DNA of 64,000 nucleotides from Gemmobacter caeni. Its GTDB lineage: Bacteria > Pseudomonadota > Alphaproteobacteria > Rhodobacterales > Rhodobacteraceae. Every line of letters begins with the position of its first letter. Within the stretch, counting starts at the first letter, position 1. The notes below the pieces were generated by a model. That model was not told where the DNA came from. It saw only the letters and a list, made by a program, of their open reading frames with translations, and did not search any database. The stretch lies in assembly GCF_003054195.1 (NCBI RefSeq), contig NZ_QBKP01000001.1, positions 248,001 through 312,000 of the forward strand, given 5' to 3'. Below, one piece after another: positions 8,341 to 63,286 of the stretch. The position numbers and the translations under genes were made by a program.

Positions 8341-9342
8341 ATGACCGTCAAAGTTGCTATCAACGGATTCGGACGTATCGGGCGCAACGTTCTGCGCGCT
8401 ATCATCGAATCGGGCCGCACCGATATCGAGGTCGTGGCGATCAACGATCTGGGTCCGGTGGAAACCAACGCACACCTTCTGCGCTTCGATTCCGTCCATG
8501 GCCGCTTCCCGGTCGAGGTCACCACCGGAGACGACTGGATTGACGTCGGCCGTGGCCCGATGCGGGTGACAGCCCTGCGGAACCCGGCGGACCTGCCGTG
8601 GTCGGATGTCGATGTGGTGATGGAATGCACCGGCATCTTCACCAGCAAGGAAAAATGCCTCGCGCACCTGGAAAATGGCTCGAAACGCGTGCTGATCTCG
8701 GCCCCCGGCGAGGGTGCCGACAAAACCATCGTCTACGGGGTGAACCACGACACTCTGACGGCGGATGACCTGATCGTCTCAAACGCCTCCTGCACCACCA
8801 ACTGCCTCAGCCCCGTCGCCAAGGTGCTGAACGATGCCATCGGCATCGAAAAAGGCATGATGACCACGATCCACAGCTATACCGGCGACCAGCCGACGCT
8901 GGATACGATGCACAAGGATCTGTATCGCGCCCGCGCCGCCGCCCTGTCGATGATCCCCACCTCCACTGGCGCGGCCAAGGCGGTGGGTCTGGTGCTGCCC
9001 GATCTGAAGGGAAAGCTCGACGGATTCGCAATCCGGGTGCCGACGCCCAATGTCTCGGTCGTGGATCTGAAATTCCTCGCGAAGCGCGACACGACGGTGG
9101 AAGAGGTGAATGCCGCGATCAAGGCGGCTGCCGATGGCCCGCTGAAGGGCATTCTGGGCTACACGCTGTTCAAGAATGTCTCGTCCGACTTCAACCATGA
9201 CCCGCATTCCAGCATCTTCCACATGGACCAGACCAAGGTGATGGACGGCCGCTTCGTGTCAATCCTCAGCTGGTATGACAATGAATGGGGTTTCTCGAAC
9301 CGCATGGCGGACACCGCCGTGGCCATGGGCAAGCTGATCTGA
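8341..9342 (+). CDS. gap: Class I glyceraldehyde-3-phosphate dehydrogenase, copy 2 (Asp at the coenzyme position)
   Basis: A 333-residue GAPDH, clearly a paralogue of the upstream copy, with INGFGRIGR, catalytic Cys151 in [17 protein letters not shown] and [12 protein letters not shown]. At residues 34-37 it reads INDL, keeping the Asp that selects NAD, so it is the better candidate for the glycolytic enzyme. The ATG at 8341 follows AAGGAGGCAGCC; the frame is open upstream to 8278 but without conservation. It has its own LacI-type operator and a good terminator after it, so it can be expressed separately from gap1. Confidence 0.96.
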
Positions 9343-15649: not shown

Positions 15650-16522
15650 ATGAAGATCGGATTCATCGGCCTTGGCAACATGGGTGGCCCGATGGCGGCC
15701 AATCTGGTGAAGGCGGGCCATGCGGTCACGGGCTTCGACCTGACCGCCCCGATGCCGGAGGGCGTGACCAGGGCCGCAACGGCGGCCGAGGCGGCGACAG
15801 ACGCCGAAGTCGTCATCACCATGCTGCCGAATGGCGCCATCCTGCGCAGCGTGGCGGCGGAGGTGATCCCTGCGATGACGGCAGGGGCGGTGTTGTGCGA
15901 TTGCTCCACCGTGGATGTCGACAGCGCGCGCGCCGTGGCGGATCAGGCGCAGGCGGCAGGGCTGGGCGCTCTGGATGCGCCGGTATCGGGCGGGGTTGGC
16001 GGCGCCACCAATGGCACGCTGACCTTCATGGCGGGCGGCGCGGATGCGGCTTTTGCCACGGTGAAGCCGCTCTTTGACATCATGGGGCAGAAGGCGGTGC
16101 ATTGTGGCGCCTCAGGCGCCGGACAGGCCGCGAAGATCTGCAACAACATGATCCTCGGCGTGACCATGATCGCCACTTGCGAGGCCTTTGCACTGGCTGA
16201 CAAACTGGGCCTCGACCGGCAGAAGATGTTCGACGTGGTTTCCACCTCGTCAGGCTATAGCTGGACCATGAACGCCTATTGCCCGGCGCCGGGTGTTGGC
16301 CCCGCCTCGCCTGCCGACAATGGCTACAAGCCTGGTTTTGCGGCGGAACTGATGCTGAAAGACCTGAACCTCAGCCAGCAGGCAGCGGTTTCAGCTGATG
16401 CCGATACCCCTATGGGTCAGCTTGCAGCCGAGCTTTACCGCCGCTTTGTCGAAGACGAGGCCGGGCGCGGGATGGATTTCTCGGCCATGCTGCCGCGTTT
16501 TGAAAGGCGGGGTCGCGCCTGA
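15650..16522 (+). CDS. mmsB: 3-hydroxyisobutyrate dehydrogenase
   Basis: Oxidises 3-hydroxyisobutyrate to methylmalonate semialdehyde with NAD, feeding the MmsA enzyme. The 290-residue protein begins MKIGFIGLGNMGGPMAANLV (Rossmann nucleotide site). It continues with the substrate loop DAPVSGGVGGATNGTLTFM near residue 115 and GAGQAAKICNNMILG near 165, which holds the catalytic Lys. It begins four bases after the hydrolase stop (TAACAGAATG) and ends the operon, with a terminator just after. Confidence 0.96.
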   Translation: MKIGFIGLGNMGGPMAANLVKAGHAVTGFDLTAPMPEGVTRAATAAEAATDAEVVITMLPNGAILRSVAAEVIPAMTAGAVLCDCSTVDVDSARAVADQAQAAGLGALDAPVSGGVGGATNGTLTFMAGGADAAFATVKPLFDIMGQKAVHCGASGAGQAAKICNNMILGVTMIATCEAFALADKLGLDRQKMFDVVSTSSGYSWTMNAYCPAPGVGPASPADNGYKPGFAAELMLKDLNLSQQAAVSADADTPMGQLAAELYRRFVEDEAGRGMDFSAMLPRFERRGRA

Positions 16523-16530
16523 GGCGATTG

Positions 16531-16564
16531 CGCGGCGCCCGCGTCAAGGCGCCGCGTGACTTTT
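16531..16564 (+). terminator. Terminator after mmsB
   Basis: CGCGGCGCC (16531-16539) pairs with GGCGCCGCG (16548-16556), followed by TGACTTTT. It closes the valine operon and separates it from the DUF2892 gene. Confidence 0.65.
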
Positions 16565-16574
16565 GCCCCGTTTC

Positions 16575-16596
16575 ATTCCATATTATGAATATGGAA
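16575..16596 (+). promoter_or_regulatory. ATTC-N8-GAAT box and overlapping dyad upstream of the DUF2892 gene
   Basis: ATTC (16575-16578), eight bases, GAAT (16587-16590). An overlapping nine-base inverted repeat TTCCATATT-ATG-AATATGGAA spans 16576-16596. It lies 40-55 bases before the gene. ATTC-N8-GAAT is the form I recall for the sulfide-responsive ArsR-type repressor SqrR of Rhodobacter capsulatus; a second copy lies at 20349. Confidence 0.6.
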
Positions 16597-16629
16597 ATGT
16601 TCCCGCTACGGAACGAAACGGAGGTTCCC

Positions 16630-16836
16630 ATGCCCACCAATGTCGGCGGTATCGACCGCATCCTGCGCATCGTCATCGGGGCGGCGCTGCTGGTCTGGTT
16701 CTTCGTGGATCAGGGCAGCGGTTTCTGGCACTGGGCCAAGCTTATCGGCATCGTGCCGCTGCTGACCGGGCTTCTGTCGACCTGCCCGCTGTATTCGGTC
16801 CTTGGGGTAAATACCTGCCCGCTGAAACGCGGCTGA
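16630..16836 (+). CDS. DUF2892 (YgaP-like) small membrane protein
   Basis: A 68-residue inner-membrane protein starting MPTNVGGIDRILRIVIGAAL. Two membrane helices (about residues 11-27 and 34-54) flank VDQGSGFWHWAKLIGIVPLL, and it ends with the conserved STCPLYSVLGVNTCPLK, which holds two Cys. DUF2892 is the membrane part of the rhodanese YgaP and is often part of sulfide or persulfide stress operons. The palindromic box upstream fits that. The ATG at 16630 follows CGGAGG with good spacing. Confidence 0.88.
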   Translation: MPTNVGGIDRILRIVIGAALLVWFFVDQGSGFWHWAKLIGIVPLLTGLLSTCPLYSVLGVNTCPLKRG

Positions 16837-16925
16837 ACCGGCAAAGAGCCGCCAAGCGGAAAAATGCTTGTGGAACCCTGAATGCAGGTCGGGAATTTCC
16901 TCCCCGACAGCGAGAGGAGGTTCCG

Positions 16926-17330
16926 ATGCTGATGAAACAGATTTCCGTCGCGCTGGTCGCCGCAATTGCGATGGCTGGCCCTGCCCTTGCCGATGGCAAG
17001 GCCCATGGCAAGAAACACCACAAAGAGCGGCATGGTGTAATCTACACACAGTCGCATTGCCCGCCGGGCCTCGCGAAGAAATCGCCCGCCTGCGTGCCGC
17101 CCGGTCTGGCGAAGGACCGGGTGCATCGTGAGGTGGTGCGCGACGAACGGGTGGTTATCTATCGTCAGGGTGATGTGATCCGCCGCGACTACATCCTGAT
17201 CGAAGATCCGCTGCGGTATGGGCTTATGGACGGCACCTATTATCGGGCCGGTGATTATGTCTACCGCGTCGACCGCAACACCCATGAAGTTCTGGCGCTG
17301 ATGGGCGCGGTCAATGCAATCCTGAACTGA
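16926..17330 (+). CDS. RcnB-like secreted protein
   Basis: A 134-residue protein with a signal peptide (about residues 1-22, ending GPALA). A His/Lys-rich stretch, GKAHGKKHHKERHG, follows. Next comes a doubled CPPGLAKKSPACVPPGLAK segment with two Cys. The C-terminal part, from about residue 95, is GLMDGTYYRAGDYVYRVDR, which resembles the RcnB domain linked to nickel/cobalt homeostasis in E. coli. It should be periplasmic. Metal binding by the His-rich stretch is plausible but unproven. The start follows GAGGAGG. It converges on uvrA, 15 bases away. Confidence 0.72.
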   Translation: MLMKQISVALVAAIAMAGPALADGKAHGKKHHKERHGVIYTQSHCPPGLAKKSPACVPPGLAKDRVHREVVRDERVVIYRQGDVIRRDYILIEDPLRYGLMDGTYYRAGDYVYRVDRNTHEVLALMGAVNAILN

Positions 17331-17345
17331 CCGATGGGCGGCGGA

Positions 17346-20198
17346 TCACTCCGCCGCCACCTTTTTCGGCATCAACATCGGGCCGAGGTAACGGCCTGTA
17401 TGGCTTTCGGCAACCTGCGCCACCTGCTCCGGGGTGCCGGTCGCCACGATCCGCCCACCGCCATCACCGCCTTCCGGGCCGATGTCGATGAGCCAGTCGG
17501 CAGTCTTGATGACGTCGAGGTTATGTTCGATCACCACCACTGTATTGCCCTGCTCCACCAGTTCGTGCAGCACCTCCAGCAGCTTGCGCACATCCTCGAA
17601 ATGAAGACCCGTCGTGGGTTCGTCGAGGATGTAGAGCGTGCGGCCCGTCGCCCGGCGGCTCAGTTCTTTTGACAGCTTAACCCGCTGGGCCTCGCCGCCG
17701 GACAGCGTCGTGGCCTGCTGCCCGACCTTGATATAGCCAAGGCCCACCTGACACAGCGCCTCCATCTTGTCCCGGATGGCCGGAACGGCGCTGAAGAATT
17801 CGCGCGCATCCTCACATGTCATATCAAGAACATCGGCGATGCTCTTGCCTTTGAAGCGAATTTCCAAGGTCTCACGGTTATAGCGGTGACCCTTGCAGGT
17901 CTCGCAGGTGACATAGACATCGGGGAGGAAGTGCATCTCGATCTTGATGACGCCATCGCCCTGACAAGCCTCGCAGCGCCCGCCCTTCACGTTGAAGCTG
18001 AACCGTCCCGGCTGATAACCGCGCGCCTTGGATTCCGGCAGACCGGCGAACCAGTCGCGGATCGGAGTGAAGGCGCCCGTATAGGTAGCGGGATTGGATC
18101 GTGGTGTCCGGCCAATGGGCCGCTGGTCAATGTCGATCACCTTGTCCAGATGTTCGAACCCCTTGATCGTCTCGCAGGGCGCGGGCGTCTCATGCGCGCC
18201 GTTCAGCCGGGTCGCGGCGGTCTTGAACAGGGTTTCAATGGTCAGGGTCGATTTGCCGCCCCCCGACACGCCGGTCACACAGACGAATTTCCCCAGCGGG
18301 AAATCCACCGTCACATCCTTCAGGTTATTGCCCGAAGCCTTTACAACGGTGAGCTTTTTTCCGTTCCCGTCGCGCCGGTCCTTCGGCACCGCGATCTCGC
18401 GTTTGCCGGCCAGATATTGCCCGGTCAGGCTGGCGGGATCGGCGGCGATGGCCTGGGGCGTGCCATGCGCCACCACGCGGCCGCCATGCACCCCGGCGCC
18501 GGGTCCGATGTCGAAGACGTAATCCGCCTCGCGGATCGCATCCTCGTCATGCTCGACCACCAGCACGGTATTGCCCTGATCGCGCAGCCCCTTCAGCGTG
18601 CCCAGAAGCCGGTCGTTATCGCGCTGGTGCAGCCCGATGGAGGGTTCGTCCAGCACATAAAGCACGCCGGTCAGACCCGAGCCGATCTGGCTCGCCAGCC
18701 GGATACGCTGGCTTTCACCGCCCGACAACGTGCCCGCATTGCGCGAAAGCGTCAGGTAATCCAAACCGACATTCACAAGGAAACCAAGGCGTTCCCGGAT
18801 TTCCTTCAGAATGGCGCGGGCGATTTCGTTCTTCTGGTTGGTCAGGTGCTCCGGCACCGTGCCGATCCAGGCATGCGCCTCGCGGATCGACATTTGCACA
18901 ACCTCGCCGACATGCAGACCGCCGATCTTCACCGCCAGCGCCTCGGGTTTCAGCCGGTAACCGTGGCAGGTGCCGCAGGGGCGGTTGTTCTGGTAGCGCT
19001 CCATCTCCTCGCGCGACCAGGAACTGTCGGTCTCGCGGTAGCGGCGTTCCATATTGGGGATGACGCCCTCGAAGGTGCGCGTCACCTGATAGATGCGGCC
19101 ACCCTCGTCATAGCGGAACTCGATCTCCTCGCCGCCCGAGCCGTAAAGGAACACCTGCCGGACCTTCTCGGGCAGGTCTTTCCACTTCTTCTTGCGGTCG
19201 AAGTTGTAGTGCTTCGCCAGCGATTCAATGGTTTGCAGGAAATACGGGCTTTTCGATTTCGACCACGGCGCAATCGCCCCCTGCGCCAGCGTCAGGTTCT
19301 GGTCAGGCACGACCAGCCGTTCGTCGAAGAACAGCTCCACCCCCAGCCCGTCACAGGCCGGGCAGGCCCCGAAGGGCGCGTTGAAGGAAAACAGCCGCGG
19401 CTCGATCTCGGGGATGGTGAAGCCCGAAACCGGACAGGCGAAGTTTTCCGAGAATGTCTTGCGTTCCGGCGTGTCTGTCGCGGTTTCCAGCACGGCGATG
19501 CCATCCGCCAGATCCAGTGCGGTGCGGAAACTGTCAGCCAGCCGCGTCGCCAGATCGGGGCGCACCACGATGCGATCCACCACCACGTCGATGTCATGGC
19601 GGAACTTCTTGTCCAGCGTCGGCGGCTCATCCAGCTCATAGAACTGCCCGTCCACCTTCACCCGCTGAAAGCCCTGCTTGCGAAGCTCCAGAAACTCCTT
19701 GCGGTATTCGCCCTTGCGGTCGCGCACAATCGGGGCCAGCAGATAAGCGCGCGTGCCCTCTTCCATCGCCAGCACGGCATCCACCATGTCCTGCACCTGC
19801 ATCGCCTCGATCGGCAAGCCGGTGGCGGGGCTGTAGGGGGTGCCGACGCGAGCAAACAGCAGGCGCAGGTAATCATAGATCTCGGTCACCGTGCCGACGG
19901 TCGAGCGCGGGTTTTTGGAGGTGGTCTTCTGTTCAATGGAAATCGCCGGCGACAGACCCGAGATATGGTCCACATCCGGCTTGCCCATCATGTCGAGGAA
20001 CTGCCGCGCATAGGCCGACAGGCTTTCGACATAGCGGCGCTGGCCTTCGGCATAGATCGTATCGAAGGCGAGACTGGACTTGCCGGACCCCGACAGGCCA
20101 GTGATGACGACAAGCTGGTCGCGCGGGATATCCAGATCCACGCCCTTCAGATTGTGCTCGCGCGCGCCGCGCACCTCGATGAACTTCTGTTCCGCCAT
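17346..20198 (-). CDS. uvrA: Excinuclease ABC subunit A
   Basis: The damage-recognition ATPase of nucleotide excision repair, acting with UvrB and UvrC. The 950-residue protein has both ATPase halves: Walker [15 protein letters not shown] near residue 32 and [16 protein letters not shown] near 640, with [12 protein letters not shown] and [13 protein letters not shown] signatures. The zinc modules CPACDGLG and [11 protein letters not shown]...CETCKGHR are intact. The start at 20198 gives [18 protein letters not shown]; an upstream in-frame start at 20222 is less likely. A LexA-type box lies 65 bases upstream, so SOS induction is expected. Confidence 0.98.
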
Positions 20199-20262
20199 GA
20201 CCGACCTCACTGAGACGGCCAAGATTTAAGGCATCACCGGGGAATCGCCAACCGGAAAACGT

Positions 20263-20277
20263 GAACAATTGGTGAAC
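20263..20277. promoter_or_regulatory. LexA (SOS) box upstream of uvrA
   Basis: GAAC-AATTGGT-GAAC, an exact GAAC-N7-GAAC, the direct-repeat SOS box of alphaproteobacteria. It lies 65 bases from the uvrA start. A seven-base inverted repeat ACTTTTG/CAAAAGT (20276-20299) follows it. Confidence 0.85.
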
Positions 20278-20348
20278 TTTTGTGATTTTCCGCAAAAGTC
20301 ACGATTTTGTGGGCAGAGGATGATTTGATCCTCTTGCAAAGCAATCAC

Positions 20349-20364
20349 ATTCATTTATTTGAAT
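20349..20364 (+). promoter_or_regulatory. ATTC-N8-GAAT box upstream of the rhodanese gene
   Basis: ATTC-ATTTATTT-GAAT, with five-base inverted arms ATTCA/TGAAT, lies 32 bases before the rhodanese start. It has the same form as the box at 16575 before the DUF2892 gene. A stem-loop AGAGGAT/ATCCTCT (20315-20334) lies just upstream. Confidence 0.6.
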
Positions 20365-20396
20365 ACAAATTCCTCAAGCCGGAGTCGGAGCCGCGC

Positions 20397-20765
20397 ATGT
20401 TTTCCTTCCTCAAACCTTCTGCCCATCGTTGCAAACCCATCGCCCCCGCCGATGCCGTGGCGCGCGCTGCCAGGGGCGATCTGGTGCTGATCGACGTGCG
20501 CGACATTTCAGAGCTGAAATCCAGCGGCAAGGCCAGGGGCGCAGTGCATGTGCCGCTGATGGCGCTGCAAAGCCGTATGGCGCCGGGCGCGGCCGATCTG
20601 CCCAAGGGCGTGGCGCTGGACACCCCGATCTGCCTTTACTGCGCCTCGGGCGGCCGGTCGGGCATGGCCGCCGATACGCTTTTGGGCATGGGTTACACCG
20701 AGGTCTATAACCTCGGGGGCCTCGGTCACTGGCAGGCGGGTGGCGGCGCGATTGAACGGGTCTGA
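20397..20765 (+). CDS. Single-domain rhodanese
   Basis: A 122-residue thiosulfate sulfurtransferase-like protein. The fold is visible as VLIDVRDISEL near residue 35, GAVHVPLMAL near 54, and the active loop LYCASGGRSGMAADTL near 82, with the persulfide-carrying Cys and the usual C-x-S-G-x-R-S arrangement. It ends with YTEVYNLGGLGHW, typical of the PspE/GlpE group. No signal peptide is seen. It may move sulfane sulfur during sulfide or persulfide stress, which fits the box in its promoter. Its last 40 bases overlap the end of the convergent MFS gene. Confidence 0.92.
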   Translation: MFSFLKPSAHRCKPIAPADAVARAARGDLVLIDVRDISELKSSGKARGAVHVPLMALQSRMAPGAADLPKGVALDTPICLYCASGGRSGMAADTLLGMGYTEVYNLGGLGHWQAGGGAIERV

Positions 20766-22017: not shown

Positions 22018-22049
22018 ATTCACCCCTGAGGATATTTGTGAACAGATGA
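22018..22049 (+). repeat. Intergenic repeat, GAGGATATTT class, copy 3
   Basis: Reads ATTCACCCCTGAGGATATTT then GTGAACAGATGA. It is joined to two hairpins exactly as in the mmsA copy, although here the first hairpin serves as terminator for the opposite strand. Confidence 0.62.
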
Positions 22050-62881: not shown

Positions 62882-63286
62882 ATGGAGCGAAGTAAAGTCC
62901 TCTCGGCCCTGTCAGCGCTGGCGCATGAAAGCCGGCTGGACCTCGTGCGCCTTCTGGTGCCACGCGGCGACGAGGGCATGGCGGCGGGTGACATCGCACG
63001 CACGCTGGGACTTTCGGCCTCGCGCCTGTCCTTCCATCTTTCGGCGCTGGAACAGGCCGGGCTGATCCGCTCGCGCCGGGTGTCGCGCAATGTGATCTAC
63101 AGCGCCGACCTGTCAGGGATCGGCGGGGCGATTTCCTATCTGCTGGCCGATTGCTGCATGGATCATCCGCAGGTTCTGGCCTGCTGCGGCGCCTCGGCCC
63201 GCCATGCGCTGCATCGCGTGGCCGAAGGGGACGCCGCGCCCCGGATCACTGATCCGGAATCAGGAACACCTGACCCGGATAGATGA
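62882..63286 (+). CDS. ArsR-family repressor with a C-terminal CC/CC cluster
   Basis: A 134-residue winged-helix regulator: MERSKVLSALSALAHESRLD at the start, then GDIARTLGLSASRLSFHLSA as the recognition helix and SRNVIYSADL as the wing. It lacks the ELCVCDL site of classic E. coli ArsR. Instead it has Cys91-Cys92 and Cys101-Cys102 in ADCCMDHPQVLACCG. A C-terminal Cys site of this kind resembles the arsenite site of the Acidithiobacillus-type ArsR. It is divergent from the Atm1-type exporter. Its last 41 bases overlap the convergent LysM gene. Confidence 0.88.
   Translation: MERSKVLSALSALAHESRLDLVRLLVPRGDEGMAAGDIARTLGLSASRLSFHLSALEQAGLIRSRRVSRNVIYSADLSGIGGAISYLLADCCMDHPQVLACCGASARHALHRVAEGDAAPRITDPESGTPDPDR

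Follow-up and report, generated by a model that had tools for sequence, protein, structure and literature searches.

We examined a 64,000-nucleotide stretch of the Gemmobacter caeni genome (all of it referred to below as the window), in which the palindrome ATTC-N8-GAAT occurs exactly twice. One copy precedes a gene for a YgaP-like membrane protein of the DUF2892 family, the other precedes a gene for a single-domain rhodanese, and uvrA, divergent from the rhodanese gene, lies between them (Table 1). The same sequence is quoted in a passage of PMC9774250 as the deduced binding site of SqrR, the persulfide-sensing, ArsR-family repressor of Rhodobacter capsulatus. A preliminary description of this DNA had placed the two boxes where Table 1 has them, 30 to 55 bases upstream of genes of these two kinds, and all of this was borne out: the gaps between box and ATG are 39 bases for DUF2892 and 32 bases for the rhodanese, and profile matches agree with both gene assignments. 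Fewer than one chance match had also been estimated, which fits the mean of 0.88 exact boxes in shuffled versions of the window but fails as an argument for significance. By count, the pair is not significant, because two or more boxes arose in 20 of 100 shuffles. The whole genome (5.1 Mb) holds 35 exact sites, many of them inside long open frames.

The rhodanese carries the loop CASGGRS, which we take to be the catalytic loop of the family, and its nearest named relative among 26 named loci is from Gemmobacter lutimaris (94% identical). E. coli YgaP unites a rhodanese and a YgaP-like membrane domain in one protein; PF11127 and PF00581 sit in two separate proteins here. The two operons had been described as joined by uvrA only through position. 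This understates their association: of the 120 genomes of the family that were searched, at least 28 have a DUF2892 match and a rhodanese match no more than 8 kb apart.

Table 1. Features of the locus and of two further promoters in the genome. Positions without a prefix are those of the window.
Feature	Position	Strand	Basis
Probable SqrR-type operator ATTCCATATTATGAAT, upstream of DUF2892	16575..16590	+	exact match; box in 4/38 promoters
DUF2892 / YgaP-like membrane protein, 68 amino acids	16630..16836	+	PF11127 (YgaP-like_TM), E 1e-23, residues 1-65
Small protein, 134 amino acids, signal-like start	16926..17330	+	open frame
Terminator-like hairpin between DUF2892 unit and uvrA end	17337..17358	+	nine-pair stem, T tail
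uvrA, divergent from rhodanese gene	17346..20198	-	translation
Predicted SqrR-type operator ATTCATTTATTTGAAT (strongly supported), rhodanese promoter	20349..20364	+	exact match; orthologue conservation
Rhodanese, single-domain, 122 amino acids	20397..20765	+	PF00581, E 6.2e-13; best PDB rhodanese, E 1.3e-12
Box upstream of RND efflux periplasmic adaptor gene	L014:1470-1520 (contig C4)		exact in 5/8 genus orthologues
cydA promoter, putative SqrR-type box with TTGAT-N4-ATCAA upstream	L041:1430-1620 (contig C12)	-	sequence reading

The rhodanese box and the SqrR of the genome

Within the genus, the box was exact upstream of all eight orthologues of the window rhodanese (our own included) and upstream of none of the five paralogues examined; two more paralogues (L133 and L134) were left unscored, and a close orthologue is missing from three of the 11 genomes of the genus. 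For the family, the best 70 among the rhodanese matches listed were scored and were divided at 85 bits, a value of our choosing. For 40 of these about 260 upstream bases were covered, and the linkage to uvrA, seen upstream in at least 37 of the 70, is a lower bound. Of the 37 uvrA-linked rhodaneses, the window's own among them, 28 have the exact box and six more have it with one mismatch, against an expectation of 0.255 exact boxes from shuffles. Where uvrA was not seen, exact boxes occurred in five of the eight matches of at least 85 bits (0.045 expected) and in none of the 25 matches below that score (0.085 expected), four of which have it with one mismatch. Among relatives, neither the central eight bases nor the flanks are constant. 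In the 31 sites that could be aligned on the box (33 exact sites minus two short of flank), the middle bases are T-rich and the text directly after the box is rich in A+T, and the best pair of -35 and -10 hexamers brackets the box in 20 of them.

The preliminary description had made its proposal depend on an SqrR or BigR homologue, and one is present. A profile search of the genome with PF01022 (HTH_5) gave 11 matches, among which the protein at L027:9290-9679 (contig C17, a different contig from that of the window) is an SqrR orthologue: its PDB match to R. capsulatus SqrR (6o8k) has an E value of 5.1e-40, with 69 of 101 aligned residues identical, and both sensing cysteines are kept. In passages on R. 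capsulatus itself, trxC rose 22.4-fold in response to sulfide and 21.6-fold when sqrR was lacking (PMC10044876), and the rhodanese gene rcc01557 rose more than tenfold both by sulfide and in an sqrR mutant (PMC9995734). Primer trxC R1 in PMC10044876, when reverse-complemented, reads ATTC-CGCAACGC-GAAT directly upstream of the R. capsulatus trxC start, and this box differs by one middle base from a box upstream of trxC in the present genome. Because the conservation, the SqrR orthologue, the printed motif and the same box at trxC all agree, the interpretation of the rhodanese box as a real SqrR-type operator is strongly supported. SqrR would then bind this promoter, and sulfide would be expected to induce the gene. 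The preliminary assignment of the motif to SqrR thus gains strongly from conservation at the rhodanese; for the DUF2892 box, it is probable only.

Overall, we consider it likely that the SqrR encoded in this genome uses both boxes as operators, in a persulfide regulon to which the rhodanese would belong firmly and DUF2892 probably. This is the extension of a known control circuit to a further genus and not a new circuit. From the operators, their conservation and an SqrR with its cysteines, all read directly from the sequence, we infer binding, repression, induction and enzyme roles as follows. Reduced SqrR would occupy ATTC-N8-GAAT within the core promoter and block RNA polymerase. Sulfide would give rise to persulfides, sulfur would bridge the two conserved cysteines, and SqrR would leave the DNA; the rhodanese would then be made and would carry off sulfane sulfur. 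This switch would further act on the genes for thioredoxin-2, which resets SqrR in R. capsulatus, and for the RND adaptor, and probably also on cydAB, which encodes a sulfide-tolerant oxidase, and on DUF2892, the membrane half of YgaP. If so, the data offer an SqrR regulon for Gemmobacter and a conserved set of promoters from which a firm SqrR motif can be drawn.

Several observations weigh against this interpretation. No box precedes sqrR, the 20 sites with bracketing hexamers do not include that of the window's rhodanese promoter, and a generic scan of 16500-20420 returned no sigma-70 match. The genome has an sqr gene (PDB sulfide-quinone reductase, E 7.6e-150), the classic target, which is also regulated by SqrR in R. 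capsulatus according to a passage of PMC9995734; upstream of it lies only ATTC-N8-TTAT, with two mismatches, and unrelated upstream regions often contain matches of this quality. The window rhodanese is at best a putative orthologue of rcc01557: R. capsulatus was not among the 26 named loci in the search for relatives of the rhodanese, and a stretch of the R. capsulatus trxC promoter matched none of 394 family genomes. Two other proteins of the genome could read such sites, namely the ArsR-type protein at L033 that we call SoxR and, at L022:1414-2100 (contig C29), an ArsR-type helix-turn-helix fused to a rhodanese domain, which is possibly another sulfur-responsive regulator. Finally, 34 of 38 DUF2892 promoters lack the exact box.

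The DUF2892 promoter and competing explanations

The operator upstream of DUF2892 is probable and is the least certain step of the proposed regulon. The exact box is found in four of the 38 DUF2892 promoters (the window genome, its sibling G125, G039 and G067), which span three genera. The box common to our own promoter and that of the sibling weighs little, because these promoters are 93% identical. In the seven other congeners there is one match with one mismatch, two with two mismatches (36 to 41 bases upstream of the start) and nothing better in four. A different palindrome, GTGA-N5-TCAC, is present in 21 of the 38 promoters, where 0.065 would be expected, and the two elements never occur together in one promoter. 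This palindrome lies 55-110 bases upstream of the DUF2892 start (L115, L117, L118, L100, L092 and others) and often takes the form GTGAC-N3-GTCAC followed by AGAC. Among the 15 DUF2892 loci viewed, eight have it in exact form, and by reading a Crp/Fnr-type gene lies just upstream in four of these eight (L117, L118, L100 and L092; Pfam confirms L117). A further palindrome, CCATATT-N3-AATATGG, is intact in our own promoter and in that of the sibling.

The alternative that survives best grants the SqrR operator at the rhodanese but places DUF2892 outside the regulon, with its box a product of chance or a part of CCATATT-N3-AATATGG. The scarcity of the exact box among DUF2892 promoters, the frequent GTGA-N5-TCAC in its stead, the near identity of the sibling promoters and the integrity of CCATATT-N3-AATATGG in both all speak for it. 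However, four exact boxes in three genera stand against 0.145 expected from shuffles of the 38 promoters, the one-mismatch and two-mismatch matches in congeners add to these (two mismatches weigh little), and the mutual exclusion of the two elements also counts against this alternative. We regard it as rather unlikely.

The presence of both elements, each in its own promoters, also allows a more speculative reconstruction, which we put forward as tentative. The halves of YgaP that are split around uvrA in many Rhodobacteraceae may form one persulfide-handling pair, in which the membrane half changed its regulator during evolution, with an SqrR box in a few lineages (four of 38 promoters) and a GTGAC-N3-GTCAC-type site in more of them (21 of 38), partly next to a Crp/Fnr gene, while the rhodanese half kept SqrR.

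A second and less probable alternative is that SoxR, the other two-cysteine ArsR-type protein, is the main reader of the boxes, either alone or with SqrR. By eye, the two-cysteine pattern among the 11 HTH_5 matches seems confined to the proteins of contigs C17 (SqrR) and C14 (SoxR); the latter is 64% identical to SqrR, and its name was given from its place beside sox-like open frames, recognized by eye, without a family model. In addition, the related Hyphomicrobium protein sHdrR bound the four fragments in which SoxR sites were already known, according to a passage of PMC12423496. Several observations argue against SoxR as the main reader, and we think it unlikely: the stretches scanned near sox genes gave box matches with two mismatches at best, the box-bearing trxC of R. 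capsulatus is tied to SqrR by expression data (passage of PMC10044876), and in some of the genomes whose rhodanese box is exact, G111 and G024 for example, there is a single SqrR-type match. The protein of G024 is about equally like SqrR (63%) and SoxR (62%). Upstream of the frame that starts at 8943 in the sox-like cluster, at L033:8840-8880, we observed ATATTCAAGAATACATAT, a possible SoxR site of other spacing. That both boxes are functionless chance matches, as the frequency of paired boxes in window shuffles might suggest, is hardly credible and in our view is refuted for the rhodanese, whose box is conserved far above expectation.

The window also contains an ArsR-type gene (62882-63286), which was dropped as a candidate regulator. 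Its best PDB relative is ArsR (E 2e-13); E. coli YgaV ranks second (7.7e-9) and BigR last (6.4e-4) of its 11 PDB matches, which do not include R. capsulatus SqrR.

Further predicted targets and published systems

The genome-wide scan for the box, also proposed in the preliminary description, yielded further promoter-placed sites. We viewed 12 of the 35 exact sites closely, picked by eye, and those outside the window that we judged by eye to be placed in promoters and took further lie upstream of trxC (L043), the RND adaptor gene (L014) and cydA (L041). The trxC box is exact in seven of nine genus orthologues (our own included), and two have no close match at all. For the RND adaptor, of eight genus orthologues the five with exact boxes are joined by one with one mismatch and two with two mismatches, and none of seven paralogues has the box; this site may link persulfide sensing to export. 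The cydA box is exact in two of the three assessable promoters (our own and that of the sibling) and has one mismatch in the third; a further row (L197) was excluded, as its contig ends inside the gene. Agreement between our genome and the sibling is weak evidence for all of these targets, because the promoters are 86 to 94% identical. The TTGAT-N4-ATCAA upstream of cydA is presumably FnrL-like, and a promoter with both elements suggests joint control by oxygen and sulfide. Sulfide sensing may thus control a sulfide-tolerant oxidase (cydAB) in Gemmobacter, as reported for E. coli YgaV; according to a passage of PMC9774250, cydAB reads were raised in a ygaV mutant.

Other sites were set aside. 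The ATTCACCCCCGRGAATATTT boxes at L003 and L009 resemble text at 22018-22040 of the window, the box at L037 looks like a ribosome-binding site, and that at L012 overlaps the end of an acyltransferase gene, more than 370 bases upstream of a universal-stress gene. The similar text at L003, L009 and in the window, like AATTCACCCCTGAGGATATTT, is possibly a dispersed repeat and can yield false boxes. A box at L040 lies upstream of a mutL-type gene.

The predicted regulon resembles that of R. capsulatus, as far as passages of PMC9995734, PMC10044876 and PMC9774250 describe it, in an SqrR with both cysteines, the ATTC-N8-GAAT motif, a box at trxC and a rhodanese target. It differs in its imperfect sqr site and in the predicted targets RND adaptor, cydA and DUF2892, which those passages do not name for R. 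capsulatus. The YgaV-YgaP system of E. coli likewise places a repressor of the SqrR/BigR type over a rhodanese (YgaP), and in a passage of PMC9774250 the ygaV promoter has a similar site within the area bound by YgaV, whereas the katG area is bound without it. Unlike in E. coli, one gene encodes the rhodanese and another, on the opposite side of uvrA, the YgaP-like membrane domain, and the repressor gene lies elsewhere and has no box. BigR of Xylella and Agrobacterium also sits over a -10 region and uses a two-cysteine switch, according to a passage of PMC5823870; however, in those bacteria it controls Blh (DUF442-ETHE1) and a TauE-type sulfite transporter, which differ from the genes at this locus, and the SqrR described here scores 86.8 bits against the NCBIfam BigR equivalog (NF040642), under the curated cut-off of 155. 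Our literature search, with subscription journals mostly outside it, found no publication naming both Gemmobacter and SqrR, and the term DUF2892 was not found among the matches listed.

Minor features of the locus

The 134-residue gene downstream of DUF2892 is perhaps co-transcribed with it, because the gap between them is only 89 bases. The product has no Pfam family and a single NCBIfam match, below its cut-off; by eye, a similar small protein adjoins DUF2892 at L096. The terminator-like hairpin that follows is weak, because the scan gives four such sites against 3.3 in shuffles. The uvrA start at 20198 is our own reading, and a longer frame reaches 20222. DUF2892 also lies near the rhodanese in G041 and G095, two genomes in which uvrA was not seen.

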